From NCBI GenBank assembly GCA_037039925.1, contig JAXRKP010000470.1, positions 65,001 through 129,000 on the forward strand: 64,000 nucleotides of DNA, in the 5' to 3' direction. The position numbers were made by a program, and so were the translations under genes. Of this stretch, positions 1,429 through 57,800 are shown in pieces. The first letter of the stretch is position 1, and each line of letters begins with the position of its first letter. Origin of the DNA: Doris montereyensis. Its lineage: Eukaryota; Mollusca; Gastropoda; Nudibranchia; Dorididae. Under the pieces are notes generated by a model. The model was not told the origin of the DNA and did no database searches. It saw nothing but the letters and a program-made list of their open reading frames with translations.

Positions 1429-1439
1429 TAGTGTGGTCT

Positions 1440-1990: not shown

Positions 1991-1994
1991 TTAA

Positions 1995-24385: not shown

Positions 24386-24389
24386 ACCC

Positions 24390-25134: not shown

Positions 25135-25440
25135 TTGATTGACAATGACATGTTCACATTAAATCAATGAAAATTTCAAATGTAGATAACATGACAATGA
25201 TATGTTCACATTAAATAAATAAAAATATCAAATGTAGATAAGATACCAATGACATGTTCACATTAAATCAATGAAAATACCAAATGCAGATGAGATCATT
25301 TTTCTTGATATGACAATGACATGATAAAATCAAATCAATGAAAATACCAAATGCAGATGAGATCATTTTTCAATGAAAATAAGATGACAATGACATGCTC
25401 AGATCAAATCAATGAAAATATTGAATGTAGATCAGATGGT
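25135..25440. repeat. About 52-bp minisatellite, 5 copies
   Basis: Units run TGACAATGACATGTTCACAT, TAAATCAATGAAAATACCAA, ATGCAGATGAGA. The third and fourth units carry an extra TCATTTTTC insertion. It lies close to the outer edge of the left palindrome arm. Confidence 0.85.
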
Positions 25441-26757: not shown

Positions 26758-26905
26758 CAGAGTTTATCCTGGTTTCAATAGTGTGAAGCTGAACAGGTGA
26801 TAATAATTCACCTCCTGGACATGACACTAGTCTGATACAGGTCTTTACTCCCAAGCTAGCTTTTGCATCCGTTTGCACCTGGGTTGAGTGGGGAAATTTG
26901 CTTCT
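26758..26905 (-). mobile_element. tRNA-derived SINE (family 1), headless copy
   Basis: Directly abuts the full-length SINE and repeats its body and 3' part (CACTAGTCTGATACAGGTCT, AAACCAGGATAAACTC on the reverse strand). It lacks the tRNA head, which suggests either a tandem insertion or a dimeric SINE. Confidence 0.7.
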
Positions 26906-27080
26906 TTGAAATTTACCCTGTCCGCCATTGCAGTGCTCTCAGGGTGAATTAAGAGGAAACAGAAAGATGCAAGATAAAAGAAAAAGGAAAGAAATGAAAG
27001 ACGTAGGGCCTACCAGCATCCCCCAACAACCGCCTGGGAAAAATGCATGTAACGTGTCTTTGCACGGAACATAATCTTGA
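26906..27080 (-). repeat. Short interspersed repeat 'R2' copy
   Basis: Contains, reversed, the words of the R2 family listed at 20.93 kb (CTCAGGGTGAATTAAGAGGA, GTAGGGCCTACCAGCATCC). Confidence 0.55.
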
Positions 27081-28850: not shown

Positions 28851-28854
28851 TTGA

Positions 28855-29010
28855 CTTGATAGACAATTGATTACACTTAAAGAGGAAGAACTAAAGATTA
28901 ACTACACTTAAAGAGGAAGAGGATTGTACTTTAAAGAGGAAGAACTAAAGATTAACTACACTTAAAGAGGAAGCACTAAGGATTAATTACGCTTAAAGAG
29001 GAAGAACTTA
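28855..29010. repeat. About 30-bp minisatellite, 5 copies
   Basis: Units of CTTAAAGAGGAAGAACTAAA, GATTAACTACA in the left arm. The mirrored right-arm site (49,590-49,810) instead carries two copies of a unit of about 92 bp containing the same TCTTTCTTTAACTTTAAG words, so the two arms diverged by different tandem expansions. Confidence 0.85.
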
Positions 29011-29349
29011 GCAGGACTACGATACCGCAAGAAGCGCATTTTAAATGTCCTGGCTATAGGGTTTGGGGAGAATACCAGAGTTTTGGCTGTGAAACGTTTT
29101 TCACCTTTTCTATTTCTTTTCCCATATCTATCACTGCTACATGTGTCAACAATCAACTGGCTATACACAAGCAGGTCAGGAAGGAGAGAAAGGTTGAATA
29201 AGAAAATTCTCAAAAGAAGATGCGGTGATGAGGAAAGACTTTGGAAGAGAAACAAGAGGCTCAGAAGGGTGTCAGCCGTCAGATATAAAGATACACCGTG
29301 GTTACATAGCCAACAGTACGACACCATCTGCTGTACAGCCAAATAACAC

Positions 29350-29620
29350 AAACGAGGCACAGTGGAGTGAAGTCAAAAGAGATCACGACCATAAGCGACA
29401 CCTCCACAAAAGAGAATAGCGCTTCTCTGCTCTGCTTGCCCCTTCATTCGTCCTCCTTCCTGGGTTTTTTTTTTCCTTTCTGACATTACACTGTGTGATG
29501 CCTGTATAAGTGTGTAGATATTCCTCGTTTGCTGTCTGACGAAGGATCATACCCAAAATGTAAAGTGTTGTCCTGTCCTTACTGGTGGAGTTGACACTTA
29601 TTGGCCTTTATCTTTGTACA
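29350..29620. mobile_element. MITE-like element, left-arm copy
   Basis: Begins GCACAGTGGAGTGAAGTCAA with inverted-repeat words (GACCATAAGCGACACCTCCA) and ends with the complement (TGGTGGAGTTGACACTTATT). It lies just beyond the stop of the OSTM1 pseudocopy on the reverse strand. The mirrored right-arm element (48.76-49.45 kb) is the same insertion, so it predates the duplication. Confidence 0.75.
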
Positions 29621-31139
29621 GGCATGTACACTTCCTGTCAGAATTATGAAGAAGATGCACCGCTGCTGGTGCCAGGAATACTGGTATATTCACCCCGCGA
29701 CAACTGAGCACTGATTCTTGCTGACGCAAGACGTTTTTCTGTGAAAGAGAATGAAAGATGAAAAATGAAAATTCATGAGTTGCATGCACACACACACACA
29801 TATATATATGTGTGTGGACATATGCATATGTGTGGATCCGATGAAACCTGTCGTAAGGTGAAAGGAGTTCAAACTGAAAGAAGAGGGGCATTGTGAACTG
29901 AAGTCAATCATTATGAAAAATTATTTTTTATTGCATTTCCAGTTAAATTAATCTTACGAATACCCTGATGAAATATTATGCCTTCAAATTTACTAAACAT
30001 GTGTTTAAAATGTGTTCTTCTAGCACATAAATGGATATTTCTTTTTAAACAAAAGAAAATCCTTCAACGCAATGTTTTCGATAAGAGGCTTCTTCATGCA
30101 TTCTTGAAATTCTTCTTACAAAAAAGTTGTACCTTCGTCACAATTCCACCAATTTTTATCAAATAAAGTTTTAAATTCTCATAACATATTACGCTATCAG
30201 TTTACGCAAAACAAGGCATTTTGAAGATTTCAACTTACGACGACTTTTGTCAGTTCAACACATACAAACATACACACACAAAAGAAATAAAAAGGAGTTA
30301 AAAACTTGACACATGAAAAAGTCTTTCAGAAATAAATAAAAGAAAACACAGAGGCATGGAAAAACCCAACAACTATTACTTAATATTATTTTCTAAAAAC
30401 CAAATGCTTCCATAAGACCTGCAGATATTTGGAATTGCATCAAAATATATGTTAGTTTTAATAAACTTACGCTTCACGACCTTTGACCGTTTCTCTTTGC
30501 CCATGAATCCTAAGATACCGTAGAATGCGAGAGGCAGTGGGGGCGATGATCGCTGCTATCAAGATGACCGCCGACAATCACCGGACCTATAGCTGCAGCC
30601 AAATACATAACTCCAGATCAAACGTGTGTGGTTCATCTGTGGCAAAAACAATATTTTCATCCGTATTAGTTTTAACCAGGGGATTCTCACATTGCGGGTC
30701 ACGGCTCCCAAAGGGATCATGAGCCTTTGTCTGCATGTCATGGGGGGGGGGGGGGGTCACACTACATGCACATATTGATATGCTTGTCTCAAAAAAAGCA
30801 AATAAATACACCCTTCTCATTAAAATGCATGATTAAACCAATTCTTGTTAATAAACATCAATAAACAATCTGTTATTGCAGTCTTTGCTTTAATTATTCT
30901 TTTAAATTTCTAAAGAATATAAAGACACAATCAAAAAAAATATAGGTCTAAAGGTTCATTAAAATCTAGGCCGTCCAACAATGCCGTGTTCTCAGCCCTG
31001 TAGAAAAAATGAGTAAAAATAAGCTTTTAGCAATATCAGGAATTCCTTTCCATGTCCATCAATTGTTGAGCAGAGGTGTTCATATTTACAAATATAGGCT
31101 ATATATGGAAAAACAACAAAAAAAATAACCATATGTGTA

Positions 31140-32040
31140 TGGCCAGACTTACCCTATCAACAATGTGTACCAGCCTATCAACTGTAGAAAGCAATGTATG
31201 GTTGAACAGTTCAACAAAATAAGCTTTTAGCAATATCAGGGAATTACTCTTCAACCATGTCCATCAATTGTTGAGCAGATTGAGAGGACTTATCCTATCA
31301 ACAAATGGGATAACAGACTTATCCTATCAACAATGGTATGGAAACAGACTTATTCTATCAACAATGTGTATGGCATAACAGACTTACTCCTATCAACAAT
31401 GTGTATATTACAGACTTACCCTATCAACAATGTGTCAACAATGGTATGGGATAACAGACTTACTCTATCAACAATGTGTATGGCATAACAGACTTACCCT
31501 ATCAACAATGTGTATGGGATAACAGACTTACCCTATCAACAATGTGTATGGCATAACAGACTTTACCCTATCAACAATGTGTATGGGATAACAGACTTAT
31601 CCCTATCAACAATGTGTATGGGATAAACAGACTCACTCTCATCAACAGATAACTTACCCTATCGACAATGTGTATGGGATAACAGACTTATCCTATCAAC
31701 AATGTGTATGGGATTACAGACTTTCAACAAATGGGATAAGACTACCCTATCAACAATGTGTATGGGATAACAGACTTACCTATATCAACAATGTGTATGG
31801 GATTTTAACATGTGTATGGGATTACTTACATCCTATCAACAATGTGTATGGGATAACAAACTTACCCTATCAACAATGTATATCAACATTGTGTATGGGA
31901 ACAGACTTATGCTGGGATTCAGACTTACCTATCAACAATGTGTATGGGATTTACTAACAATTTGACCTACTCCATGCAATGTGTATGGGATTACAGACTT
32001 ACCCTATCAACAATGTGTATGGAATAACAAACTTACTCTA
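31140..32040. repeat. 34-bp splice-donor minisatellite, intron 4 of the left-arm OSTM1 copy
   Basis: About 25 degenerate units of AACAGACTTACCCTATCAAC, AATGTGTATGGGAT on the plus strand. Read in gene orientation, each unit contains TTGTTGATAGGGTAAGT, a copy of the exon 4 end plus the intron 5' splice site. The array starts exactly at exon 4. Some units are truncated. Confidence 0.9.
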
Positions 32041-32479
32041 TCGACAATGTCCATGCAGGCGTTCCCGTTCATTGAGTCTGAAACGTCCTGATAATGGTTG
32101 TTCAAATCTCTGTACTCCGCCAGCATTTGGTACACACCGACTTGTTTGTTTTGTCATCTTCCACTGGAAATTGCCACCATCGGATGCTGGTGTCCTAAAG
32201 GAGGCACAGAAAAAATATGACAGACCAGTCATGGATGGCCGGGTTTCAAAATGCGTACAGGTCCAACAATACCATTAACAAAAGATATCTGTGTGGTCTT
32301 ACATTTATATTCTACTGAAAAGCTGAAAATGGAAAACAACAAGAGTGAAATAGGATGGAGGGGGGTAAGCTAAACCACATACAAAAGTCGTTTTTATCTA
32401 TCCACTTCACCCGACAGGCATTAACATGGAACCTGAAGAGCCTCCGAAAGAGGAGAAAGAACACAATTACATTCAAATT

Positions 32480-32640
32480 TAGAGCTCCACCATGCGCTGA
32501 TCTGAGGGTGAAGTAGGAGGAGGAAATAACAAGACGAAGGGGAAGTGAATGAGTGAAAGGAAAGAAGTAGGAGCTGCCAGCAGAGCTCACTAACTGCCCA
32601 TGGGGAAGAGCACAGAACACATGGGAGACAACTGGATACA
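32480..32640 (-). repeat. Short interspersed repeat 'R2' copy, left arm
   Basis: Matches the right-arm copy at about 44,330-44,500 in mirrored position, including GCTCCTACTTCTTTCC in gene orientation. It was therefore present before the duplication. Confidence 0.65.
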
Positions 32641-32779
32641 GACATGACAGAGACATGGGGAAGACTTTGAAGAGAGGTGGAAGAGATAGCACAAGACGGA
32701 ATCGCTGGAAATGTCTTGTTGACGACTGTGACCCCACAAGGCATGATGAAAGTGCTGATCTATCTACTCGTATCATAAT

Positions 32780-33218
32780 TGTAACATAGTTTTGTAAGAG
32801 ATTACGCTGTAAACGAAAGCCTATGATGTAATCAATTTTAGTTCATGCAAAACCTCTATTTGAGTTTGAGACGTAATCATTTTGGTGTGCCCTAATATCC
32901 ATTCGTTTATATCTGGAAAGGTTAAGAATGTTGTAGAATAATGTCGAAATGTTTAAAATGGTGGGGAAATTTCCGTTGTAGAAATATCTTAGTTTTCGAC
33001 TATATATAACGGAAGAGGGAATGAAAAAGAACTTACAGTAGATTCTACCTCATTTTATGCCAGCTTACATTAAATATAGCTGTACTTATTTCATCCATTG
33101 ATTGTGAGTATAATAAACAGCCTTGTTAATGTTATAATCATTAATCAGGCCTTTGCTGCTACTAGTGTCTATTTCTACCTCTAGATCTAGTGCCTTGCTT
33201 CATTTTTACCTTTGTAAC
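32780..33218 (+). mobile_element. Possible solo LTR, left arm only
   Basis: A segment of about 439 bp bounded by TGTAACATAG and CTTTGTAACA. It contains a TATA-like ACTATATATAACGG (about 33,000) and a downstream AATAAAC signal (about 33,111). The flanks are ATAAT and ATTAT, not a clean duplication. The right arm lacks it: its sequence runs through CACAACCTAATAATGATGATACAAG (about 44,205-44,225) where the left arm is interrupted. No internal retrotransposon genes are seen. Confidence 0.5.
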
Positions 33219-33269
33219 AATTATTATCATAATTGTCAAGTTGTATACTTAACTCAATAAATAAGAGCC

Positions 33270-33390
33270 ACTAAAAAACACCAAGGAAACGCTTCACCCT
33301 GGTCGGGGCTTAAACCCACGACCATTTGGTTCAGATGCTGACCCCTTGCCTTTGGATCTGACCACCAAGTCCCCCTCATGTAAGGAAGAG
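33270..33390 (+). repeat. R1-like tRNA-end fragment
   Basis: Carries GGGGCTTAAACCCACGACCA and ACCACCAAGTCC, the terminal words of family R1. Only the end of the element is present, in intron 3 of the pseudocopy. Confidence 0.5.
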
Positions 33391-34121
33391 TAAGGAAAAT
33401 TCAAACAAAAACGAAAGCAGTTTTACTTAAAAAACAATTCATTTCCTATCAGATGCTCTATGAATTATGAGGCAAGTGACTTTAAAGACAGCTAGGTGTC
33501 AAATCTGAGCATCCATTCTTACCTCCAAAGACACCTTTCAGACACAGCGATAAATTCCTGAACTTGTCCATGAAGTGCACAACTTCATCTGGTATGGTGT
33601 AATTCACAGTTTCTGAACAGCTGTGAATTTCAATGTCTTGAGTGCAAGCTGGAAATTCAAAGCCATAAATCAATAAAAACATCTCTCAAAATTTGGAAAA
33701 TTGGACAAATCTTTTAAAAAATGCAAAATTTGATCAAAACAAACACGACAACTTCCTTCTACGTCACGATTAAAGGAAAAAATGACAAAGAAAAAACTCA
33801 GTAATTACACTTTAGAAGTTTCCTGACATCTTTAAAAAAGTTTTAAACTAAAATGTTGTAAAAATCTCTTCAGTAATATTTGGGTTTGACCAACAAAGCA
33901 AAAACTAGAAATAAGCATCTGCAATCATCATCTCAAATGAAAAAAAACAACTTCTTAATGAAGTAAATAACAATGAACCAATGCTACAAAATAGAAAATG
34001 AATCACCTGCACAGGCAGCTCTGACCAAACACCTTCAATGAAGGCCTGCATCAACGGGATAATTTGAACCCGATTTTCCCTCATGTACTTGATGCGATTG
34101 TCTCTTAGTTTTCTTCATGGC

Positions 34122-35590
34122 CTAAATAATTTCATAATAACAAAGAGAAACTTAGGAATGAGCCGTGAAGAACATGAATCAAATCAAACAAAAGGATTAT
34201 ATTAAAATTAATGAAAATGTATTTTACCATGTTGAGCTACTTTCTGTCTCTCTGTCTTTGGATGTGTAATTTAACAATGACAGTTAACTCAGACATGAAC
34301 AATTGTTAAAGGTCAAGGCCATAAATGAGGTTAAGCCATAGAGTACGTTGATATATTTAATATATTATAATATAAGATGACTTCATTTTTTCCATAGGTG
34401 TCCAGGAAAAGGTCAACTTAAAATTTTCTACATGAATGGAACGATCCTTCCTGGGAAATGAAACAGCCCCATGCTGCCAATAAAACCCTGGGAAAAGCAT
34501 ATATACATGTGCTGCCAAACAAAACCCAAAAATCTGACATGGATATATTTAAACAATTTCATAAGCTCAATGAAGAAAAAGTTCAATTTAAATTGTAATT
34601 GAACAGCTTTTTATTTCTGTTATAGGTCATTGAAGTGGAATGATATCAAAATGACATTAAAAGTTCTGTTTTAGATTATTTATAGTTCATAATTTTTTAC
34701 CACCAGACCTCCATATATGCCATTGTATTTCTTCTACCCGATCTATATGACCCAAGCATGAAAAGTTTGACGCATAGCTAACTTTGCAACCTTGCTGAAC
34801 ACCCTGGGTGCATAATACACATAAAACACACATACACACACACACATCCGTGCACACCCCCATCTTCTATCCGAGACACGATGATACTATTCATATATAT
34901 GTATACATGTAAAAGAATAAAATCATCTGTGTGCTAACATTTTGGTGGTTTTGAGAAAAATGAAGGAAACTCTTTGGCCTGACCTCAGCCAGTGATATAC
35001 ATACACCGTGTAGGACAAAATGATACGTCAGTGATAACTCAGGAATACCTCAACGCATTTTATCCTCATTCATTTTTGACTGATAGATCATAGAATGAGG
35101 AGTGAAAATAAATCATTTTCATTCTGGCCTCAGTAAGACCTAGTTAGACTATACATTAGCACACTGCCGGAAAAAAACCCAATTTTGTGCGAATAGTTAG
35201 AGAAAAAGAGCGTATGTTATGATCCATCAATTTAAACATGAATTACATAGATAATTCGTTTACAGACTGTCATTGGTGATAGGTTGACTCTCAATCAAAA
35301 CCTATCAAATTTGACTTATAAATGTTTTGGGAGCAAAACGCATTTTCTTCAAAGTTAACAATTTACAGTAGTAACAAAATATACACAGGCACTTATCTAA
35401 CATGCTACAACAGTGAGTATAAATCTGGTGTCATATCTGTGACATACGATGGACTTTGTTTCTTTTTAGCAAAACCCTGTGCACCATGGTGGTGATCTCG
35501 CAAAACTGACAGTAGGTTCCTTTCATGACGGTGATTTTCCTTCAAATCGTGTGCTAGATCCGATTTCGTGTCTAGAGTGGATAATAATTA
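34122..35590. other. Intron 1 of the left-arm OSTM1 copy, unique part
   Basis: AT-rich intron with no nested ORF. A short (CA)n lies at about 34,830. No RNA gene was recognised. Confidence 0.5.
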
Positions 35591-35594
35591 CATA

Positions 35595-35896
35595 TTTTTA
35601 AAATTTGATTTTACCCACATCCACAACTAGTGAAATTCGGGCTTTGGCTGGATTTTTAATTTTGCCCAGATATTCCTGTAAACAGCGAAGGGATCTTCAA
35701 AGTAGACAGAGAGTTGTGATATCCACACGGGGCCTCTTGTTATGATCCATCTTCAATAAGACTAGGTCTGGATCTACCTACCTGGACAGGGGGGGGGGGG
35801 TTGGGTTTTACTTAAAAAAAAAGGGCAGGAAATTTCTAAACTGTCTCGGCTTGAATCCACAACCTTTTGGTTGAGAGGCTAACACCACCGCCCATT

Positions 35897-35933
<37 letters not shown>

Positions 35934-35935
35934 GA
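35595..35935 (+). mobile_element. R1 element and (TA)n tract, left arm
   Basis: R1 copy with CCCACATCCACAACTAG, AATAAGACTAGGTCTGGATC and CACAACCTTTTGGTTGAGAG, followed by a (TA)n tract at 35,899-35,931. The right arm has the mirrored pair (TA tract 42,232-42,265, R1 42,310-42,580), so both predate the duplication. Confidence 0.75.
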
Positions 35936-36725
35936 CAAGAACATCCTGACTTCAATCTTAAAAAATACTGTATAAGTATAAAACTAATATATATATCGGT
36001 ACATATTATATGATAACAAATGTATCAGTTTTACATAGCACCTTGAATTATTAGACATTTTTGTTTTCTTTAAAACTAGATAGTAATCAGAAGGAAAAAA
36101 TACTTACAACAAAGTTGCTATATGTAACTGATGTTAATTGATGTTCAACGATGCATTCATTACATATTCTAAAGGGTCTTGAGTGTTTCAACTCACAGTC
36201 CGTAAATTCTCCTGCATAATGAATGTAAGCCTTATAATATGCCTGGCATTTTTCTATGATAGCACTCTCGTTGTATGTGCCGTTACGGCTGGTGTTTTGC
36301 GGAAATATTGCTCCTGGTGAACACTGTGCAGGAAAACTGTAACTCACATTCAGTCCAGATGCAAGATTCTGATCCCATGCTACACCACAGTACATGAGGC
36401 ACATGAGGAAAAGGACGATATCAAAATCTGAGTTCATCATTTTGCTCTTGATTTTCTTTCTACTCTGACTTTAATGAGCAAGCTTAAAATCTACTGATCT
36501 TAATCTAAATCTACAAAAATATGGAATCTACTTGTTCACTGTGGGCAGGAAGACCTTTTGAAGGTAGATCAATATCCTTATAGTTGACCACCTTCTTTAT
36601 GTTCACTACGAAATCCCACAATGCTTCAACATATACTTGGTTGTGTAGTAAAAAGAAAAAGTCACTAAAATAACATTATTTCTTTTGAAACAATTTTTGA
36701 TCTCTTTCATGACATGCTGGATGCA

Positions 36726-36735
36726 CCTGAGGAAG
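36726..36735 (-). promoter_or_regulatory. Conserved 3' splice site of an upstream non-coding exon, left copy
   Basis: In gene orientation CTTCCTTCCTCAG precedes GTGCATCCAGCATGTCATGA. The right arm has the mirrored CTCTCCTCAG and GAGCGTCAAGCATGTCATGA (41,545). Conservation of a polypyrimidine-AG at both places supports a spliced 5' UTR. Confidence 0.5.
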
Positions 36736-37659
36736 GAAGAAGAAAATAAGAAAATTCACTGTCTAGCAAATAAAAATAAGAGAAGTTTTATAGACTTATT
36801 TCAGAATAATCAAACCTCAGGGATGTAAAGCAACTAATGAAATAAAGACACGCTATTGCTAAAACCAATCTTTCGTGATAAACCCATGAAAACCAAAATA
36901 ATAAAAAAGAACATTATATTATATATTATACTGCTTTAGAGGCCATTTACTTTTAAATGATCAACAAGTAGTAATACTGTACGATTCATAGCTGCCAACC
37001 TTTTCACGTGAAAAAACAGACTCAACAAAAGCAAATCAACTCAACCTCCAACGCCCCACAATATTACAGAAAACATTGATTATTTTCTTTAAAATTATGA
37101 AGTGACTATTCGTCATTATGACGAACATCTGAGAGAAAAATGCTATTTGTCGATAGTTTTGAATCTATTTTATTGCCAATGACGGTTGACGATTTTGACT
37201 ATCGCTTTGGTAATCGAGTACTCTCTCGCGGTAAGCTCATCATTTTATTTTCCTCATTCATTAATTGATTTCCGAGCTGACCGCTTCACCAGTGACAACG
37301 TCCGTCAATCTTGCCACAGGGTCCACTTTTACAACGATTTCTTACAGGAAATCTAGACATTAGCTCTAGATCTAAGTACTTCGCAAGACATAAATACAGA
37401 GGGAAGGACAGAAACACAAGACCAAGAAAGACAAGTAGAAGGAGAGTGACACACATACATGTGCAAGATACAAAGAGAGAGACACACACACATACATATC
37501 TTCAGATCAAATCACACATGCCCCATAGATCTTGACTTAATGTTTAATCATGACACAAGACCAAGAAAGATAGAAGGAGATAGAGATACACGTGACACAA
37601 GACAGAGAGAAAGGATAAGGCCAAGAAAGATAGGAGGAGAGAGACACACCATATACACA

Positions 37660-39700: not shown

Positions 39701-39790
39701 GTCTAAAGCAAGCTAGATCTAGATCTGGATTCAAATCTAAAGCTTCAGAAATCTATATAGATCTAGATCTTTATCTAGATCTAGATTCTA
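39402..39790. repeat. AGATCT-rich low-complexity cluster, left side of centre
   Basis: Many overlapping palindromic AGATCTAGATCT words at about 39,405-39,430, 39,650-39,725 and 39,755-39,790. The right side has the mirror image at 40,310-40,420. Confidence 0.85.
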
Positions 39791-39796
39791 GTTATT

Positions 39797-39990
39797 TGGC
39801 AACAAATCAAACATGCTGTCTTTCCTTAAAAAAGGATTACCTTTCAAATCGTTGGTGTCGCTCCGTATCATTTCAGTCTTCTTTCTTTTGTGTACAAAAA
39901 TTGTGTTGATCATGTGACAAAACGATGAAATCGAAAGAAGAAAATCCGATATAAAAAGTTCGAATGGCTACTTTGGTTATGGCAATGTTT
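39797..39990 (-). promoter_or_regulatory. Inner palindrome arm, putative promoter and 5' exon of the left OSTM1 copy
   Basis: The reverse complement matches 40,110-40,305 (AAACATGCTGTCTTTC, TCAAATCGTTGG, AATCGAAAG, TTCGAATG are shared). In gene orientation CCAACGATTTGAAAG is followed by GTAATCC, a plausible 5' splice site at 39,840. An E-box ATCATGTGAC lies at 39,909-39,918. A leftward transcription start within this arm is inferred. Confidence 0.5.
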
Positions 39991-40109
39991 TTGACATTCT
40001 ATTGAGTAGTGTTCAGTGTTCATTCCGCTCAGGCGCCAAGCTGCACATTGTAACAATCCGATTGGTGTCTATTTCCAGTGACAAGAATTTTCTCGCATTA
40101 GAATGTAAA

Positions 40110-40305
40110 AAGTCAAGATATGGTAGTCATTCGAAGTTCGTCTTTCGGATTGTTGTATACTTTCGATTCCATCGTCGTCACGTGAGCAATACAATTGTGT
40201 ACAAGATCGGTGAGGAAGAGCACGGAAATGAAAGAATGGAACCAACGATTTGAAGGGGTAATAAGTTTTACTGAAAGACAGCATGTTTGATCTGTTGTCA
40301 ATTTT
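40110..40305 (+). promoter_or_regulatory. Inner palindrome arm, putative promoter and 5' exon of the right OSTM1 copy
   Basis: Mirror of 39,797-39,990. Contains GTCACGTGAG (40,177-40,186), which is nine of ten bases of the vertebrate CLEAR element (GTCACGTGAC) bound by TFEB-type factors at lysosomal genes. Vertebrate OSTM1 encodes a lysosomal protein, so the motif is apt. CCAACGATTTGAAGG is followed by GGTAATA, a possible donor at 40,258, pairing with the acceptor before 41,545. Function is inferred. Confidence 0.5.
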
Positions 40306-41350
40306 AACTAGATCTAGAAGAGCTAGATATAAATCTCTGTAGCATTAAATTTTAATGCAGATTTAGATCTAGCTCTAAATCTATCTAGATCTAGAACTAA
40401 AATCTAAATCAGAGGATCTAAATTGGGCCTGGATATAGTGATATAGATTAAAGGAAGTGGTTATTCGGACCCGGGTCCCAATAAACACCCACACTGTTCG
40501 GACATGCTAGTCCTATTAGGACACAGACTATTTATGTAAAATGACGTCATATCCTAACCTAAACTGTGCATGCCCAGAACAATATTATTAGATCTATTGT
40601 TTAAGTGCCGATACCACCCATGTCCCAAAATCCAATAACTTTCCCGGTAGCCTACTCCATAACATTAATAACGTAGTGTAGCACCTACTGGGATATTCAC
40701 CTATTAAAAAATATTTAAAATGGGTAATAAAAATCGCGACCCGTGCTCCCGAAAATGAGTTCACCGGAAAATATGAAAGGTTTCCGTTTACTTTTTTTTC
40801 CGAACGAAATATGACCGCAAGAGATAGAAGTCGACTTCGCTCAAGGCCGTCAAGATGGCCTTACTTCGCTACGATGGAAACTGAAATTACGTGTCTTCAA
40901 CTTCAATTCTCTAAAATATATTTTTAGACAGATTCTAGATCTGTGTGTCCCAATAAAAACCTGGGCTAGATTTTTTTAAAAACAAGCGTTTTTGCAATCT
41001 ATAAATAAACTATGAAGATAAAATCATAATGCACCATTGTCTCCGCGTATACTTAAATATTAATATATTACATTAAAAGATGAGTTACAAGTTATTATAC
41101 ATACTCACTGATACAGACGATACGTGTTTTAGACCTACACATGGTATATACAAGTGCACATCTATATGATGTATACAAGTTTACATTCTTGTCTCTTCTC
41201 CTCTCCTGTCTAATTTGTTAGTCTACGAAACAAAAACTGTCAGGAAACACCCGCAATTCATACAGCAGCGTTTGACAAAAAACAGCCTATCGTAAGCACG
41301 AGTAGAAGCGATTGGCACTCGAATGGTTTTTAATAGACACTAATGCAGTA
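40306..41350. other. Right-side 5' intron or upstream region
   Basis: AGATCT cluster at 40,310-40,420, then unique sequence. It includes a GC-richer patch at 40,790-40,880 with CAAGATGGCC (a YY1-like word). No ORF with coding character was found. Confidence 0.4.
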
Positions 41351-41831
41351 TAATAAATATTTTATTTTGGTAAGTTTGTGCCTTCATTTTTTCATGAAAG
41401 ATTAATGTTTTTGGCAATGTTATTATATGTCTTTATTTCCTTTCATCCCACGGGTTTAATTATTCTGAATTAGGCCTTAACTTCTATTATACTTGCTTGA
41501 TCAAGAGTGAAAAGAAATTTATTGTTTTCTTTTTCTCTCCTCAGGAGCGTCAAGCATGTCATGATAGAAGATCAAAATTGTTTCAAAAGCAAGGAGATTA
41601 TTCTAGTGACTTCTTTTTTACTACTTCAAGTGCATGTTTTAGGTTTCATGTGATTTCATCCCAACTCATTTTTCTGCCTACAGCGAACAAGTAGATTCCC
41701 TATTCTGTAGATATAGATTAATAATAAGATCAATAGGTACTAAGCTGCCTTGTTAAAGTGGAAGAAAGAAGAAATCAAGGGCAAAATGATGAACTCAGAT
41801 TTTGCTATCAGTCTTTTTCCTCATCTGCCTC

Positions 41832-42225
41832 ATGTACTGTGGTGTAGCACGGGATCAGAATCTTGCATCGGGACTGACCGTCAATTACAATTTTGCTGCA
41901 CAGTGTTCACCAGGAGCAATATTTCCGCAAAACACTAGCCGTCACGGCACATACAACGAGAGTGCTATCATAGAAAAATGCCAGGCGTTTTATAAGGCTT
42001 ACATTCATTATGCAGGAGAATTTACAAGCTGTGAACTGGAACACTCAAGACCCTTTAGAATATGTAACGAGTGCGTTGTTGAACATGAGTTAGCATCTGT
42101 TACATATAACAACTTTGTTGTAAGTATTTTTTTCATCTGATTACTTTTTAGTTTTAAAGAAACCAAATGTTTTATGATTCAAAGAAATGTGTAGATATTA
42201 TGCATTTGTCATTTAAGTACTGGTA

Positions 42226-42267: not shown

Positions 42268-45200
42268 TGTATAGAGAGCTGTTATTAAAGATCACACTCA
42301 GGGTTTGATTGTAATGCAAGGGGAAGGTGGCCCAGAGGCATGGTGTCAGCCTCTCAACCCAAAGCCCAGATGTGTGAACAATTTTCTCTTCTTTTGAGCC
42401 GAATCCACACACACGCAAACCTCCCCCCTCCCCCCTTCTGGTCCAAGAAGGTGGACCAACACCCGTGTCCACATCACACCACTCTGGGCACGTCCCATGG
42501 CTGTTTACAGGACCGTGCAGGCAAAGTTAAAAATCTTTCCAAAATACCCGAAATCACCTTAGTTGTGGTTGTGCGTAACTTAGAGTCAAGAAGTCTATCA
42601 AATGCACTCTGAAACACAAGGTCAGATCTTGAGGGATACGAGTAGCAAGGAAATTACTCTCATGAAAGGAAAGGAACTGACTATCAATTTTATGAGATCA
42701 CAGTCAAGGCGGACAGGGTTTATCTCAAGTCACTTTTTGGCTTGCAGCATGTCAAAATATATGTATCTTTTTTTTTAATTTACTTGGCAAGTTGTAAACT
42801 TTGAAACGTTGAACTTTGCTTCCAAAATTGAGGTCGAATTTGATGAATTTTGGTTGAGCGGGACGAAGAGTCTAACAAGCCAACCTATCATCGACAACAG
42901 TCTGTAAACAAATTGTTTATGACATGCATTTCCAAGTATTTTAATATTCTTTTGTTTTGATGCATGTTCTTCACGTTGCATTCCTACGTCTCTCTTTGTT
43001 ATAAAATTGTTTAGACTGATCAAGATCTTCGAGATTGTCGCATCAAGTACATGAGGGAAGACCGGGTTCAGATCATTCCGTCTATGCAAGCCTACATTGA
43101 TAGTGTTTGGTCTGATGCTGCCTGTGCAGGTGATTAATTTTCTAGTTTATAATATAGTGTTGTTTCATTGTTATTTATTTCATCAAGAAGATCTTGTTAG
43201 TGCGAATCAGGTTTTGAATAGATTTATAATAGAAACGCAACAGTGGTGGGATTGCACAACAAGAAATTGGGAAACAAATGAAAAGCGTGTCAGCTCTTGA
43301 GACAATGTTAATGGATGTTTTTCCTTTGCTTGCTTTGTTGAACAAACCAAAATTTTACTGAAGAGATTTTACAACTCTAAGGGAAAACAATTTTAAAGAA
43401 TGAAAAATCAAGAGTGACTTGGGGTTGGGGAGGGGGTGTCTTAGAATGAAGTTGTCATCTTTATTTTGCAGTGGCTCATGTTTTAGATTTGTCAAACTTT
43501 ACTTTTTAAATTTTTTTCCGATCTTTAAGTTTGTTGAGGAACGTGTTTATGAGTTTATAACTTTGATTTTCCAGCTTGCACACAAGATGTTCAAATTCAC
43601 AGCTGTTCAGGAAATGTGAATTACACCATACCAGATGGAATTGTGCACTTCATGGCCCGTTTTAAGAATTTATCGCTGTGTCTGAACATGTCTTTGGAGG
43701 TAAGAATGGATGCTCTGATTTAATGCCTAACTGTCTTTAAAATGACTTGCCTCATAATTCATAGAGTATTGGATTAGGAATTGAATTGCTCAAGTAGCAC
43801 TGCTTTTGCTTTTGTTTAAATTTCCCCTGCTTTTCCTTACTGAATAATCATAGGACACTTACATTCTGATGAGGGAAGGGATTGAACATTTATCAGATGC
43901 CATGTACGCGTCCAAAATTAGGGAGCAATCTATCAAGTCCTGTATACTTGAAGGGGAAATTTTAATTTTAATTTATTTATAAAATGGAGTAAGGAAAGAG
44001 TGAAGTGTGAGGTTGAGGGATTGTGTGTGTGTGTTTCACAATTTTACACCCTTTTCTTTTTATGTTGTGAAGGAAATATTTAGAATGTGCATGGGAAGGA
44101 CAGGATTAGAGGTGAACACGTTTTTCTGCATTTTAGAAATGTTTCTAAGTTTGTTTGAAAGCAGGGGGAAAGGGGTGCTATTTATTTAATCAGTTTAATA
44201 CACAACCTAATAATGATGATACAAGTAGATAGATCATCACTATCATCATCATACCTTGTATTCCCTTGTGAGGTGACGGCCGTCAACAAGAGATTTTCAG
44301 TGATCCCTCTTCCTTCCCATCTCCTTCATGTCTGTACCCAGTTGTCTCCTACATGCTCTGTGTTTTCCCCCGTGGGCAGTTGGTGAGCTGTTCTGGCAGC
44401 TCCTACTTCTTTCCTCTCACTCATTCACTTCTCCTCCATCTTGTTATGGCCTCTTAATTCACCCTGAGATCACTGCGTACGATTGGTGGAGGGCTAAATT
44501 TCAATCTAACTGTGTTTTTCCCCTCTTTCTGTGGCCCTTCAGATTCCATGATAACGCCTGTCGGGTGAACGTTAGAAAGGTAAGCCAAATGACTTTTGCA
44601 TTTGGTTTGGCTTGCCCTCTTCAACCTTTTCCACTCTTGTCGTCAGTTATTTAGTAAAATATATAACTGTAAGACTACGCAAAAACAAGAACAGCATTTG
44701 TTAATGGTAATGACGGACCTGTACCAATTTGAAAACCTGGCCATCCATGGCTGGCCTGTCAGTGGGTGGTTGGTGGGCGCCACTGATAAGTCCTACTTTT
44801 ATTTCTCTCTATTACTTAGCTTTCATCTTGCTATTTCTTCTCAATTCAGCTTGAAATCATCACCACATAGTGTGGATGGGGTAGTTTCAATGAAACAAAC
44901 AACCTGGTCAGTCATACTTTTTCTGTGCCTCCCTTAGGACACCGGCATCAAAATATGGCAATTCCATGTGGCAGATGGCAAAACGAACACGTCCATATGC
45001 ACCCAATGCTTAGAGGAGTACGTTGATTTGAATGACCATTATGAACACATTTCTGACTCCATGGATGGGAACACCTGTATGGACATTGTTGATAGAGTAA
45101 GTCTGATATTGCATACACATTGTTGATAGAGTATGTCTGATATTCCATACACATTGTTGATAGAGTAAGTCTGATATTGCATACACATTGTTGATTATAG

Positions 45201-48200
45201 TGTAAGTTTGATATGGCATACACATTGTTGATAGAGTAAGTCTGATATTGTATACACATTGTTGATAGAGTAAGTCTGATATTGCATACACATTGTTGAT
45301 AGAGTAAGTCTGATATTGTATACACATTGTAGATTGAGTAAGTCTGATATTGCATACTACATTCTTGTTAGAGTATGTCTGTTATCCCATACACATTGTT
45401 GATAGAGTAAGTCTGATATTGTATACACATTGTTGATAGAATAAGTCTGATATTGCATACACATTGTTGATAGAGTAAGTCTGATATTGTATACACATTG
45501 TAGATTGAGTAAGTCTGATATTGCATACTACATTCTTGTTAGAGTATGTCTGTTATTTCATACACATTATTGATAGAGTATGTTTGTTATTTCATACATG
45601 TTATTGATAGAGTATGTTTGTTATTTCATACATGTTATTGATAGAGTATGTCTGTTATTTCATACACATTATTGATAGAGTATGTCTGTTATTTCATACA
45701 CATTATTGATAGAGTATGTTTGTTATTTCATATACATTATTGATAGAGTATGTCTGTTATTTCATACACATTATTGATAGAGTATGTTTGTTATTTCATA
45801 CACATTATTGATAGAGTATGTCTGTTATTTCATACACATTATTGATAGAGTATGTCTGTTATTTCATACACATTATTGATAGAGTATGTTTGTTATTTCA
45901 TACATGTTATTGATAGAGTATGTTTGTTATTTCATACATATTATTAATAGAGTATGTCTGTTATTTCATACACATTATTGATAGAGTATGTTTGTTATTT
46001 CATACATGTTATTGATAGAGTATGTCTGTTATTTCATACACATTATTGATAGAGTATGTCCGTTATTTCATACACATTGTTGATAGAGTAAGTCTGTTAT
46101 TTCATACACATTATTGATAAAGTATGTCTGTTATTTCATACACATTATTGATAGAGTATGTCTGTTATTTCATACACATTATTGATAGAGTATGTTTGTT
46201 ATTTTATACATGTTATTGATAGAGTATGTCGGTTATTTCATACACATTATTGATAGAGTATGTCCGTTATTTCATACACATTGTTGCTAGAGTAAGTCTG
46301 TGATATTCACTTGTGGACGTACAAGGCACTGCATCAAGAGAGGTAACTAAAAAAAATATAAATAGCATCATGTAGTTGTGTCCCTTGTGTAATCTGAGAA
46401 ATGCTTAATCTGAGAAGAAATGTCTAGTCCGACGAGTTTCGTATTAAGCATTTTCGAGTGTTCATCATAATAGGATTTGCATTTTTGGCTCCAAAACCTT
46501 GGGAAATAATTCACCACACTTTGAAGTAAATGCTTTGTGCCACCATACACGATGTTGTAAAGATGCACCTTTTTTGGGCGAACATTGTGAAAGTGAAAGC
46601 AAGCCACTGATTTTTTTATGATCAAAAGTGAAGCAATATAAACAATACAGTGCAAGATAAAGATATAGCAGATGTTAAGAAAAAGTGAATCTTTTCACAA
46701 AGATTTTAAAATTTCGATGATATCCTCGAGCAAAGAATTCAGGGTCAGGTAATGAATTCATCTTCTTCGGAAATCGCAACGTGGCCGTCATGTGAAGGTT
46801 TAAACACAGTCACTGTTACGGTAGTAAGGCCGACCACAGAATCACAATACGTTGTTGAACCAGGCCATGGGCGATCATCGGGTGCTACTGGTAGGTCCTA
46901 TTTCTTTCTTATCATGCTTGCACTTATGTTTCCCTTCCATCTTGCTGTTCCCTATGAATTCAATTTGAGATCATCGCAAATGGGGAGCGGGATAAATTCG
47001 ATTAAAGAGACAATAATGAACCAGGCCTCCATGCATCCTACAAACTATAATTAGAAGTACAGAATATGTTAAGGGTGGAGGTGGATATAGGCAAGAATAC
47101 TTGGGAAATTACTTTGCTTTATATTCATTAGTATTTTCAGTGATTAGACCTGAGCATGACGGGCGTTGCTTGTAGGTCTTACTCATTTCCTTTCCTTCTC
47201 TTTTCATTTATCTTTTGATCTTGCTGTTTCCTCTCAATTCACCCTGAGATCACCGCAATGGTGGATGGGGTAAATTTCAAAGAAACAAACCTGAGCATGT
47301 ACATTTCTCTAGATTTAAAAACTAGGATCGGCCGAGTTTGAATTTGTCTTAGCTCGTGTTCAATCAGCTGAGTAGGCTAGCATAGATGGCTAGACTAATA
47401 TTCAATGTGCGTGCTTGCTTGCAGTCTTCATTTTTATCTAATGACACATATCATCCGTTTAGAAAAGGCTTTCCCAAACGTTTCCAGTGCGTGACCCCTT
47501 TCAGTTGTACCAGACCTACTATGAGTTCCACCTTTATGAGCCTTCTGAAAACATACTTAGTTTCTAATATCGCAGATATGCTATTTTGGAATTTAACAGA
47601 TTAATTACAGCAGAGAGAGCAATAACAATAGACAATGTTTATTATTGTTTAATAACATTTATTAATGCTCATTAAAAAGGACTGATTTAACCTTGTGTTG
47701 TAATTAGAAGAATGTATTTAGTTGCTTTTTTGACTCACGCAAATCAATATGTACATGCAGAGAAAGGCCCATGATCCCTTTTGGGGTCACGACCCGCAGT
47801 GAGAGAACCCCCTGGTTTAAAACATAACATGTACTGATGAAAGTCTTGTTTTTGCCACAGATGAACCACACACGTTTGATCTGGAGTCATGTATTTGGCT
47901 GTAGCTATAGGTCCGGTGATGCTGGGCCAATCATTTTGATAGCCATGTTTATCGCCCCACTGCCCCTCGCATTCTATGGTATCTTGCGATTCATCGGCAA
48001 AGAGAAAAGATCAAAGGTCGTGAAGCGTAAGTTGATTGAATTAACATACTTTTTTGGTTCAATTTATATTATTTCCTTGTATTTGCAAGTCTTATAATGG
48101 AAGCATTTGTTTCTCTGTTTATTTAACTAATTTTCTTTCTTTTCGTATGCATGTGTGTATATTTGTATGTATACGTGTGGGTCTAACATTACCCGTTGTT

Positions 48201-48733
48201 AGTTGAACATCTTCAAAATGTTTTTGCATTAAATGATAGCCTTATATGTTCTGGGCATTTTAAACTTTATTTAATGAAAATTAGTAGAATTTTGACAAAG
48301 GTACACATACTTTTGTAAAAAGAATTTCAAGAATACAGAAAGTCTCTTTTAGAGAATGTCGCGTTTTTCTTTAGATTCAAGAGAAGTGTCCAGCTATGTG
48401 CTAAACAGTACCATTTAAACACATACATAGGCACTTTCATGGCAAAATATTTCATCTGGGTCTTTGTAAAAGATCAAAAATGAAAACAATTGACCTCAGC
48501 TCACATTTTCCCTCTTTCTCGGTTCTAACCCCTTTCACCTTACATGTTTCATCACATTCACACACATATATGTGTGAGTGTGTGTCCAATTCACGAAGTT
48601 CATTGGGTTTTTTTTTTATCTGTCTTTCTCTTTCACAGAAAAACGTCTTTCATGTGCAAGAACCAGCAGTCGGATGTCGGTGGGTGAATATATCGGTGTT
48701 CCTGGCACCAGCAACAGTACATCTTCTTCCTAA
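41832..48733 (+). CDS. OSTM1: OSTM1 ortholog, right-arm copy (six coding exons; start region uncertain)
   Basis: OSTM1 is a glycosylated lysosomal type I membrane protein that acts as beta subunit of the ClC-7 chloride/proton exchanger. Exons: 41,832-42,119, 43,015-43,129, 43,575-43,699, 44,938-45,096, 47,861-48,026, 48,639-48,733. All introns are GT-AG and the phases fit (0, 1, 0, 0, 1). From the in-frame ATG the product is 315 residues (human 334). Exon 1 has CELEHSRPFRICNEC, the family's Cys-rich ARP.R.C..C block. Exon 2 has EDRVQI..... W.DAAC. Exon 3 has NYTIPDG and NLSLCLNMS. Exon 4 has CTQCLEEYVDLNDHYEHI and C.MDIVDR. Exon 5 has MNHTRLIWSHVFGCS and one membrane span (about residues 252-271) followed by basic EKRSKVVKQKR. 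Exon 6 is a short Ser-rich cytosolic tail. Several N-glycosylation sequons are seen. The expected ATGATGAACTCAGAT start at 41,786 is out of frame because of a T5 run (41,814-41,818; T4 in the left copy), so the signal peptide is disconnected. Confidence 0.85.
42230..42580 (-). mobile_element. (TA)n tract and R1 element, right arm, intron 1
   Basis: (TA)n at 42,232-42,265 followed by a reverse R1 copy: CAGCCTCTCAACCCAAAGCC, GTGGACCAACACCCGTGTCC, CTGTTTACAGGACCGTGCAG. It mirrors 35,595-35,935. Confidence 0.75.
44280..44600 (+). repeat. Interspersed repeat 'R2' copy, right arm, intron 3
   Basis: Carries CTCCTACTTCTTTCCTCTCA, TTAATTCACCCTGAGATCAC and GATTGGTGGAGGGCTAAATT. The same element lies mirrored at 32,480-32,770. 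A second partial copy follows at 44,750-44,890. The short frames here are not genes. Confidence 0.65.
45083..46310. repeat. 34-bp splice-donor minisatellite, intron 4 of the right-arm OSTM1 copy
   Basis: About 35 tandem units of ATTGTTGATAGAGTAAGT, CTGATATTGCATACAC. The first half-unit is the coding end of exon 4 (ATTGTTGATAGA, residues IVDR) with its donor GTAAGT. Units up to about 45,540 mostly keep GTAAGT; those beyond mostly read GATAGAGTATGT with TTATTTCATACAC. Every unit is a credible 5' splice site. Confidence 0.93.
46311..47860. other. Intron 4, distal part
   Basis: Two R2 copies (46,880-47,000 and 47,160-47,285). An interspersed element, spanning AGTACAGAATATGTTAAGGG at 47,057 to GGCTAGACTAATATTCAATG near 47,400, recurs at 52,560-52,810. 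At 47,480-47,520, CCAAACGTTTCCAGTGCGTG and at 47,760-47,815 CCCTTTTGGGGTCACGACCC resemble a second reverse-type tRNA/hAT-like repeat; the left arm has the mirrored GGTCACGGCTCCCAAAGGGA at 30,700. No nested gene was found. Confidence 0.5.
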
Positions 48734-54479: not shown

Positions 54480-54872
54480 TCTGGAACCATTCAGATTATA
54501 TTACAACTATAATACACAGTTTGAATCTTTGAGATTATATTATAATTATAATACACAGTTTGAATCTTTGAGTTTATATTACAATTATAATACACAGTTT
54601 GAATCTTTGAGATTATATTACAATTATAATACACAGTTTGAATCTTTGAGTTTATATTACAACTTTAATACACAGTTTGAATCTTTGAGATTACATTACA
54701 ATTATAATACACAGTTTGAATCTTTGAGTTTATATTACAATTATAATACACGGTTGGAATCTTTGAGATTATATTACAATTAAAATACACAGTTTGAATC
54801 TTTGAGTTTATATTACAATTATAATACACAGCTGGAATCTTTGAGGTTATATTACAACTATAATACACAATA
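54480..54872. repeat. 39-bp minisatellite
   Basis: Ten units of TTGAGATTATATTACAATTA, TAATACACAGTTTGAATCT. The 13-residue period (LRLYYNYNTQFES) is an artefact of the unit length. It joins directly to the 38-bp satellite at ACACAATAAACAACTTTCC. Confidence 0.95.
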
Positions 54873-57800
54873 AACAACTTTCCTATAGACATCTAGTTTC
54901 TCATACAGTAAACAACTTTCCTATAGACATCTAGTTTCTCATACAGTAAACAACTCTCTCATAGACATCTAGTTTTTTCATACAGTAAACAACTCTCTTA
55001 TAGACATTTAGTTTCTCATACAGTAAACAAATTTCCTATAGACATCTAGTTTCTCATACAGTAAACAACTCTCTTATAGACATCTAGGTTCTCATACAGT
55101 TAACAACTCTCTTATAGACATCTAGGTTCTCATACAGTTAACAACTCTCTTATAGACATCTAGTTTCTCATACAGTAAACAACTCTTATATAGGCATCTA
55201 ATTTCTCATACAGTAAACAACTCTCTTATAGACATCTAGTTTCTCATACAGTAAACAACTCTTATATAGGCATCTAGTTTCTCATACAGTAAACAACTCT
55301 CTTAAAGACATCTAGTTTCTCATACAGTAAACAACTCTTATATAGACATTTAGTTTCTCATACAGTAAACAACTCTCTTATAGACATCTAGTTTCTCATA
55401 CAGTAAACAACTCTCTTATAGACATCTAGTTTCTCATACAATGAACAACTCTCTCATACTCATAGACATCTAATTTATCCTACAGGGAACAACTTACTAT
55501 AGACATCTTCTCATACAGTGAACAACTCTCCTATAGACATCTAGGTTCTCCTAAACAACTCTCCTATAGACATCTAGGTTCTCCTAAACAACTCTCCTAT
55601 AGACATCTAGGTTCTCCTAAACAACTCTCCTATAGACATCTAGGTTCTCCTAAACAACTCTCCTATAGACATCTAGGTTCTCCTAAACAACTCTCCTATA
55701 GACATCTAGGTTCTCCTAAACAACTCTCCTATAGACATCTAGGTTCTCCTAAACAACTCTCCTATAGACATCTAGGTTCTCCTAAACAACTCTCCTATAG
55801 ACATCTAGGTTCTCCTAAACAACTCTCCTATAGACATCTAGGTTCTCCTAAACAACTCTCCTATAGACATTTAGGTTTCTAAACAACTCTCCTATAGACA
55901 TTTAGGTTCTCCTAAACAACTCTCCTATAGACATTTAATTTCTCTATAAACTACTATTATAGATATCTAGTATCTCATAAACAACTGTCCTATAGGCATC
56001 TAATTTCTTATAAACAACTCTCCTATAGACATCTAGTTTCTCATAAACAACTCACCTATAAACATTTAGTCTCTCATAAACAACTCTCCCATAGAATCTA
56101 GTTTCTCATAAACACATCTCCTATAAATATTTAGTTTCTCGTACATTGAACACATCTACAATAGATATCTTGGTTTTCATACAGTGAAAAGGTCACCTGT
56201 AGCCATGTAATTTCTCATAGTGACCACAACTCCTATAGACATCTAGTTTCTCATTTAGTGAAAACGTCTTTTATAGACATCTCGCTTCTCATACAGTAAA
56301 ACCGCCTTCTACACACATGTAGTTTCTCATACAGTGAACACGTCTCCTATAAACATCTAGTTTCTCTTGCAGTGAACATGTCTCCTAATAACATCTATTT
56401 TCTCATACTGTTTAACGCATCTCCTATTAACATCTAGTTTGTCATACAGTGAACATGTCACCTATATACATCTAGTTTCTCATGTAGTGAGCACGTCTCC
56501 TATATACATCTGGTTTCACATACAGTAAACACGTCTACTGTACACATCTAGTTTCTCACAGAGTGAACAAGTCTCCTATAAACATCTAGTTTATCATACA
56601 GTGAACATTTCTCCTATATACATCTAGTTTTCTTGTACAGTGAACATGTTTCCTTTAGACATCTAGTTTCTCATGCAGTGAACACGTCTTCTGTAGACAT
56701 CTAGTGTCTCATACAGTGAATCTGTTTCCTATAAACATCTAGTTTCTCATACAGTAAACGCGTCTCCTATATACATCTAGGTCTTTATGCAGTGAACACG
56801 TCTCCTGTAGACATCTAGTTTCTCATACAGTGAACACGTCTCCGGTAAACATCTTGTTTTTCATACCATGAACACATCTCTATAGACATCTAGTTTCTCA
56901 TATAATGAACACGTTTCCTGTTGACATCTAGTTTCTCATACAGTGAACACATCTCCCATAGACATTTACTTTGTCATCAAATGAACACGTCGTCAATAAA
57001 CATACAATTTTCGTACCGTTAACAACTCTCCTATCGACCTCTAGTACATCAAACAGTAAACATGTCCCCTGTGAACATCTAGTTTCTCATGCAGTGAACA
57101 ACTCTCCGATAGACCTGCAAGTTCTCATACAGTAATCAACTCTCTTATTAAAATAATAATAATAAATCTTTATTGTCCTTTTCAGGCAATCCATGTGAGG
57201 TTCACATTATGGAAATCTAGTTTCGCATACAGTGAACAACTCTCTTATAGACATCTAGGTTCTCATACAGTGTACAACTCTCATATACAGATTTAGTTCC
57301 TCATGCAGTGAACAACTCTCTTATGTAAAATATAGTTTCTCGTTTAGATTCTCATACAGTTAACAACTATAGACATCTAGTTTCTGAGTGAACAACTCTC
57401 TCATAGACGTTTAGATTCTCACTAAACAACTCTCAGTTTCTTAACAGTGAACAACTCTCGTTTAGATTATCATACACTGAACAACTCTGACCTTTAGTTT
57501 CTCATACAGTTAACAACTCTCCTATAGACATTTAGATTCTCATACAGTGAACAACTCTCCTATAGACATTTAGTTTTCATAGTCATACACTGAACAACTC
57601 TCTTATAGACATTTAGTTTCTCATACAATGAACAACTCTACAGTGACAAGTCATTTTAGTTTCTCATACACTGAACAACTCTCTTATAGAAATAAAGTTT
57701 CTCATACAGTAGAACATCTATGGTTTCTCATACAGTGAACAACTCTCCTATACAGACATTTAGTTTCTCACTGAAAAAGTCATAGACATGTAGTTTTTCA

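Follow-up and report, generated by a model that had tools for sequence, protein, structure and literature searches.

The human gene IFI6 (6-16, G1P3) is said to carry a minisatellite at a splice donor, reportedly described by Turri, Cuin and Porter in 1995 (NAR 23:1854), with a unit of 12 bp and more than one upstream donor in use. So-called mirages are known from amphioxus, in the globins BflGb6 and BflGb9 and in the Adh3 genes of Branchiostoma floridae and B. lanceolatum, where the units measure 10-72 bp; the authors' data suggest that regular splicing is unaffected (PMC3087553). Edge units that escape homogenisation, length instability and somatic polymorphism are further marks of mirages. 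In human segmental-duplication genes, internal tandem repeats have been described whose units measure about 30 bp; part of them lie at exon-intron borders, and they can alter splicing. These repeats are recent, belong to primate-specific duplicates and are short, with 4 repeats on average (PMC2812944).

Here we present an OSTM1 gene (A) of Doris montereyensis with a minisatellite at its exon 4 donor, located in a window of 64,000 nucleotides, which is the whole stretch of DNA analysed, together with arrays at the same donor in two further OSTM1 paralogues, B and C. The unit of 34 bp sets the A array apart from that of IFI6, for which 12 bp is reported. In the first-pass annotation no described counterpart was known, a view that has to be abandoned because both the amphioxus mirages and the human IFI6 donor minisatellite precede it. 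Repeats of this type are known from lancelets and from one human gene, and the OSTM1 array adds a striking and old case. As in the mirages, the A unit spans the exon-intron border of a real gene and is of minisatellite size. Many mirage repeats retain splice signals, which holds for A, where GT is kept in 34 of the 35 downstream copies, but not for C, where the donor place reads GAAAGT in 12 of 14 units and GAATGT in the other 2. Unlike the mirages (PMC3087553), the OSTM1 case comprises 36 units at a donor, and each of three paralogues has an array at this border. With regard to the cephalochordate setting of the mirages, searches for the GFP family (PF01353), which amphioxus has, and for molluscan haemocyanin (PF14830) gave no match, and neither of them gave one in any control genome. 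With the human segmental-duplication repeats (PMC2812944) it shares a unit of about 30 bp and the position at a border of a duplicated gene, but it appears to be older than its paralogues.

The OSTM1 A gene and its donor array

OSTM1 A bears two marks of its family, the OSTMP1 domain and a DxxDxMNxTRxxWS region like that of human OSTM1, and its joined exons 3-5 match Pfam OSTMP1 (PF09777) with an E-value of 1.9e-25. Splicing of exon 4 to exon 5 via the first donor gives the junction MDIVDR-MNHTR, which aligns with human OSTM1 (CIDVEDAMNITR, 7bxu; E 7.5e-13) free of gaps at the junction, gaps being present elsewhere in the alignment; an end of exon 4 elsewhere than at 45096 is ruled out by this homology. 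A protein search (5.8 billion sequences, 45 candidates) delivered 1 protein below E 1e-3, a homologue of 301 aa with 39% identity. The features of A are as follows.

41786..42119, plus strand: exon 1; frame broken once in the assembly relative to B, borders by eye
43015..43129, plus strand: exon 2; borders by eye
43575..43699, plus strand: exon 3; borders by eye
44938..45096, plus strand: exon 4, its last 14 nt (45083-45096) being the exonic part of the first unit; supported by its translation and by matches to PF09777 and human OSTM1
45083..46309, plus strand: 34-bp minisatellite repeating the exon end and the donor, 36 units; from TRF and unit census
45097..45102, plus strand: authentic donor of exon 4, GTAAGT; joins exon 5 in phase 0, with gap-free homology at that junction
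45124..45126, plus strand: first in-frame stop, TGA, upon use of any downstream donor; intron positions +28 to +30, within the first added unit
47861..48026, plus strand: exon 5, encoding the membrane span; from homology, donor read from sequence
48639..48733, plus strand: exon 6, ending with the stop codon; start deduced from its acceptor

TRF reports the array in the window at 45083-46309, with a period of 34, 35.9 copies and 91% matches. The first unit begins 14 nt upstream of the donor, and the unit, which is within the minisatellite range, consists of 14 nt of exon 4 and 20 nt of intron 4. The first-pass annotation was thus right that a minisatellite starts with the last bases of exon 4 and repeats its donor, and its figure of about 35 near-copies behind the authentic 5' splice site agrees with our census of 36 units, in which the exon's own is counted. 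Spacing is 34 nt, except for one interval of 37 and two of 35. The last unit is diverged (0.18 to its nearest), and the first is identical to others (0.0). Allowing up to 3 mismatches, the unit head ATTGTTGATAGAGTAAGTCTG has 43 matches in the window, where 0.01 are expected; 11 of these matches are on the minus strand at 31144-32048, inside and just past the array of paralogue B, which the first-pass annotation had not mentioned. The window as a whole is very rich in minisatellites according to TRF.

The donor hexamer is GTAAGT in 12 units, the authentic one included, GTATGT, the commonest, in 23 and ATAAGT in 1. The authentic nine-mer is common to 8 of the 35 downstream copies, and when scored against a human weight matrix, 8 downstream sites score equal to the authentic donor, none higher and the rest lower; the first-pass annotation had called the donors equivalent, which does not agree with this scoring. 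Its prediction that any downstream donor leads to a premature stop at a TGA inside the first added unit is borne out, and this stop precedes the membrane span of exon 5. Its claim that all downstream donors are out of frame does not hold, since three units of 34 nt add 102 nt, or whole codons, and spacings of 35 and 37 also occur, but all are still stopped by the same TGA. Concealment of the later donors by RNA structure was ruled out: in the predicted local structure the authentic site ranks only 4 of 36, with all sites mostly paired.

Paralogues B and C

Paralogue B lies inverted in the same window and C on another contig of the same assembly; in both, an array occupies the same exon 4 border as in A. 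The features of B are as follows.

29644..36440, minus strand: paralogue B from exon 1 through exon 6, oriented head to head with A; from homology
32037..32194, minus strand: exon 4 of B, frame disrupted in the assembly; its end ...GATAGA is followed by GTAAGT; from homology
31287..32050, minus strand: donor array of B, homologous to that of A and at the corresponding exon border, 23 units by our own segmentation; several TRF rows with periods of 31-35

The TRF consensus units of B and C agree at 28 of 34 positions and those of A and C at 27 of 34; among 20,000 shuffled C units the best agreed at 24 positions and none at 28. Because of this agreement of C with A and B the array is probably older than the OSTM1 duplications. 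Within their own array, the units have been homogenised separately: the nearest neighbour of a unit is found there for 36 of 36 units in A (unit A36 being an apparent tie with B), 20 of 23 in B (two of the three misses being apparent ties with A) and 12 of 14 in C. Plus-strand blastn between A and C (E up to 1e-3) matches the exons, the array, an array relic at C2854:129282-129330 and one stretch of 39 bp. The two genes are separated by a dS of 0.72 and a dN of 0.29 (185 codons). The frame of B is disrupted in the assembly, and those of A and C are also broken, in exon 1; dN/dS between A and B is 0.25 (162 codons compared, frame-shifted stretches left out). A firm contrast of B as a pseudogene with a working A was therefore dropped, and B is not to be cleanly dismissed as a dead copy.

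Scored with the same human matrix, C has no site of at least 4 bits in about 520 bp behind its donor, where 200 shuffles average 5.0 and reach at most 12. B has 9 downstream sites that outscore its authentic donor; its 13 sites of at least 4 bits do not exceed its shuffles (mean 8.9, maximum 16), but its 10 sites of at least 7.2 bits do (mean 1.6, maximum 5). These stronger sites speak against a general rule of weakened decoys, and as the units within one array are not independent, the arrays amount to only three observations. A stop codon begins at +25 or +28 behind the donor in A, B and C.

Origin of the arrays and alternative readings

We consider it quite probable that the array is a boundary-spanning, mirage-type minisatellite of pre-duplication origin, with later copies that became intronic and were homogenised per paralogue, and with the first donor mainly used. 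In an ancestral OSTM1, 14 nt of exon 4 and 20 nt of intron 4 would have been tandemly duplicated before the three paralogues parted. The first copy would have remained under coding and splicing selection, while those behind it would have become intron, changing in number by slippage or unequal exchange and becoming homogenised separately in each paralogue. The spliceosome, we infer, mostly picks the first donor, aided by the preceding exon and by the weaker copies behind it, which read GTATGT in A and GAAAGT in C and which selection may have acted against as decoys. Occasional use of a later copy would include the TGA-bearing stretch and lead to nonsense-mediated decay (NMD) or to a lumenal OSTM1 fragment without the membrane span.

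A neutral reading keeps the same origin and anatomy but has no splicing effect and no selection on decoys, the weakening in A and C being chance fixed by homogenisation. It is a possibility to be taken seriously, at somewhat below an even chance; it overlaps with the mirage-type explanation, from which it differs only on the decoys, and the likelihoods given to the two are not mutually exclusive. Concerted evolution can fix one substitution throughout an array, and there are only three arrays, with strong copies in B; that no downstream donor is stronger than the authentic one in A or C points the other way, but is suggestive only.

A working regulatory device, in which a bank of poison donors sets the ratio of membrane OSTM1 to NMD or a secreted lumenal fragment and is kept for that purpose, is very improbable. 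Persistence of the array in three paralogues across the A-C distance, the retention of GT in A and the occurrence of a stop at +25 or +28 in all three are consistent with it, as is the secretion of OSTM1 in vitro upon loss of its membrane domain, reported in PMC7460669; but the donor is not conserved in C, and the many GT sites of A can stem from the copying of one unit. The fuller proposal, that such a device is older than the duplications, that a chain of U1 sites tunes membrane OSTM1 against an NMD-targeted or secreted product and that array length is a quantitative expression trait, is a shade less probable still.

Independent origin of the arrays at the same donor in each paralogue is very unlikely. 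The exon end and the donor are common to all by descent in any case, and the roughly 60 bases directly behind the C donor form no clear unit, but the intronic 20 nt of the A and B units agree with C at 15-16 positions and the main TRF rows of all three have a period of 33-34.

That a dispersed repeat family landed at the donor, or that the array is an assembly artefact, is the least credible reading, favoured by the abundance of minisatellites in the window and by one array on contig C224 that weakly matches that of A (E 5.3e-7), but opposed by the array's presence in three divergent paralogues and by the absence of C224 from 10 OSTM1 exon matches; a mobile or dispersed family was rejected, as 11 of the 12 genome matches listed to the A array are in the A, B and C arrays and 1 is on C224.

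A genome-wide scan for AGGTAAGT arrays, which is no test of enrichment, gave 864 matches against 3668 in the reversed control, and many of the matches listed (contigs C4 to C601) are AGGT microsatellites. Kinase exons were surveyed in 53 of 139 PF00069 matches, comprising 29 of 30 cut loci and 24 matches in 20 stretches; locus L041, whose flank is cut by a contig end, was left out. A TRF array (unit of at least 8) lies near the match edge in 11 of the 53, and an array starting at the exon's donor was found in 1 of 53, although some matches overrun stops and hence do not end where the exon does, and an array at a donor of this kind may have escaped notice.

The locus offers a natural experiment on donor choice, in which a single exon precedes a long series of donors that vary in strength and stand at a nearly fixed spacing of 34 nt. 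The three sister genes differ in the strength of their decoys: those of A never exceed the authentic donor, some of those in B do, and in C all stay below 4 bits. The arrays suggest that a minisatellite at an exon border can persist after gene duplication, here over a synonymous distance of about 0.7. The OSTM1 array shows an intermediate of the kind proposed for intron gain in the amphioxus globin paper (PMC3087553).

OSTM1 and the exon 4 donor array

The source genome assembly comprises 513 Mb in 3500 contigs, the window being contig C2914:65001-129000. Two of three OSTM1 paralogues, A and B, lie in the window, and the third, C, on contig C2854. Features of A and B are listed below in window coordinates.

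41.8-48.7 kb, + strand: OSTM1 paralogue A, located by translated-exon homology
44938-45096, + strand: exon 4 of A
45083-46309, + strand: 34-bp minisatellite of A (TRF: period 34, 35.9 copies)
47861 (start), + strand: exon 5 of A, encoding the membrane span
29.6-36.4 kb, - strand: OSTM1 paralogue B, with the end of exon 4 at 32037
32050 to 31287, - strand: array of B directly behind exon 4, ~34-bp units (TRF)

Translated exons 3-5 of A match Pfam OSTMP1 (PF09777, E 1.9e-25) and, in the PDB, human OSTM1 (7bxu, E 7.5e-13). At the exon 4/5 junction (...ATT GTT GAT AGA / ATG AAC CAC ACA...) there is no gap against human CIDVEDAMNITRKLWS, and because the junction codons align gap-free the donor at 45097 was taken as the authentic one. 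Each unit of the array consists of ACATTGTTGATAGA, which is the last 14 nt of exon 4, and 20 nt headed by the donor; TRF span and unit composition thus bear out the first-pass annotation, which had the repeat begin with the last bases of exon 4 and its donor.

The 36 units, including the authentic donor, carry GTAAGT (12), GTATGT (23) or ATAAGT (1), with GTAAGT in 10/13 of units 1-13 and GTATGT in 21/23 of the later units. Scored with a human donor matrix, the authentic donor reaches 7.21 bits and is equalled by eight of the 35 downstream sites and exceeded by none, so the supposed dozens of equivalent donors are not found; the common form AGA/GTATGT scores 4.23 bits. Sites of at least 4 bits number 34 in the A region, versus a mean of 6.05 and a maximum of 16 in shuffles. 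Predicted local RNA structure did not distinguish the first donor of A from the later ones.

A large inverted duplication, which the first-pass annotation had not noted, makes up the window, with scattered matches of 23352-36947 to 54471-41332; inside it A and B are arranged head-to-head. Between the two genes lies a self-inverted stretch (39711-40374, 68% identity), and both window ends are largely minisatellite with units of ~30-39 bp (583-3741, 7495-19167 and 54493-64000). In the assembly the frame of B is broken in at least three exons (3, 4 and 5), and those of A and C in exon 1 (A: 41786-42119; C: C2854 near 119.6 kb). The broken frames in all three copies may be residual sequencing indels or may mark pseudogenes, and B is not clearly a dead copy.

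Paralogue C and the age of the arrays

The A array has at least 12 matches in the genome: nine on C2914 (arrays of A and B), two on C2854, behind exon 4 of C, and one on C224. Ten exon matches were obtained with the OSTM1 protein, seven on C2914 and three on C2854, with no OSTM1 exon on C224 among them. The C224 site (C224:443363-443547; stretch L010, 4385-5314) is a 36-bp array with weak resemblance to the OSTM1 unit. A pattern of exon end plus donor gave 29 matches versus 3 for the reversed control; the two exact matches correspond to exon 4 in B and in A, and exon 4 of C heads the list of one-mismatch matches. Features of C are given in coordinates of L009 and L031, stretches from C2854.

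L009 4982-5424: array of C, period 33-34
L009 4605-4778: two-copy 84-bp tandem duplication around the exon 4 acceptor
L031 8760-9012: 26-bp array, ~10 copies, immediately behind the exon 3 donor

At the donor place the units of C read GAAAGT (12/14) or GAATGT (2/14), and many units of the 26-bp array contain GTAAAA. A solitary relic of the 34-bp unit is located past a 22-bp array in intron 4 (L009 6806-6837); from this relic, the ancient array may have shrunk from a greater length.

In a common register the TRF consensus units are identical at 28/34 positions between B and C and 27/34 between A and C (15-16/20 in the intronic part); among 20000 shuffled C units none reached 28, the best being 24. 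A and C proteins share 114/185 residues (dS 0.72, dN 0.29), and A and B differ by dS 0.48 and dN 0.12 (162 codons). Plus-strand blastn of A against C (E up to 1e-3) recovers the exons, the array, an array relic (C2854:129282-129330) and, at A 42326-42364, a single stretch of 39 bp. Because the units agree although A and C are far diverged, a single array was probably born in the common ancestor of A, B and C, rather than three separately. Nearest-neighbour units fall within the own array for 36/36 units of A (one apparent tie), 20/23 of B (two of the three misses being apparent ties) and 12/14 of C; the units within each gene have evolved in concert.

Probable origin of the array and predicted effect of later donors

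Unit composition suggests an origin by tandem duplication over the exon 4-intron 4 border. Further border duplications in C stand beside it, namely the exon 3 donor array and the 84-bp duplication, perhaps a nascent border repeat of a 3' splice site. Thereafter the exon copy would be constrained by coding and splicing, while the remaining, intronic copies would turn over freely, and the first donor would presumably be used most. By the human matrix, decoys stronger than the authentic donor number none in A and nine in B, and C has no decoy of at least 4 bits. The pattern in A and C would fit selection against decoys, a reading weakened by B, which has nine stronger decoys and is not clearly dead.

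The earliest in-frame stop past the authentic donor is a TGA at +28 in A and B and +25 in C, upstream of exon 5 and hence before the membrane span. The first-pass annotation expected any downstream donor to be out of frame and to meet TGA. The stop does precede the effect of all later donors; the frame claim does not hold throughout, since unit spacing in A is 34 except for one 37 and two 35, and some later units add whole codon numbers. According to a review, OSTM1 without its membrane domain is secreted in vitro, and the first disease-linked human mutation leads to skipping of exon 5 in human numbering, which may differ from that used here (PMC7460669).

Recurrence and known counterparts

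Of 139 matches found in a kinase-exon survey, 53 were examined; 11/53 have a tandem array near the match edge, and in one of the 53 the array begins at the donor itself.

C1177:58061-58192, - strand: L080, kinase exon ending ...SYMA, 64-bp unit, 3.2 copies, unit start GTAAGT

We take the L080 exon to be MAP2K-like from its motif. Its units additionally contain a pyrimidine-rich GTAG and resemble a miniature intron together with a miniature exon. Among the matches listed, minisatellites with AGGTAAGT in successive units of ~22-43 bp occur on C25, C46, C63, C265, C337, C357, C425 and C601. The array-at-donor arrangement thus recurs within this genome, with L080 as a further case and these other arrays as candidates.

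The first-pass annotation knew of no counterpart, which is not upheld: human IFI6 (6-16) reportedly has a minisatellite at a splice donor (Turri, Cuin and Porter 1995), and amphioxus has mirages. A paper on amphioxus globins describes these mirages as minisatellite-like tandem duplications of exon-intron borders, earlier reported from Adh3, where the units measure 10-72 bp; according to its authors the clusters are unstable in length, at Adh3 even somatically, and the Adh3 data and the authors' RT-PCR suggest that regular splicing is undisturbed despite AG/GT in many repeats (PMC3087553). For recently duplicated human genes, a survey describes tandem repeats located at exon-intron borders (PMC2812944). 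The OSTM1 donor array therefore belongs to an already described kind of border minisatellite. Notable, if true, would be how many donors a single exon has (36 units, of which 35 keep GT), the shared position of the array in three paralogues at a synonymous distance of ~0.7, and decoy donors in graded states across the paralogues.
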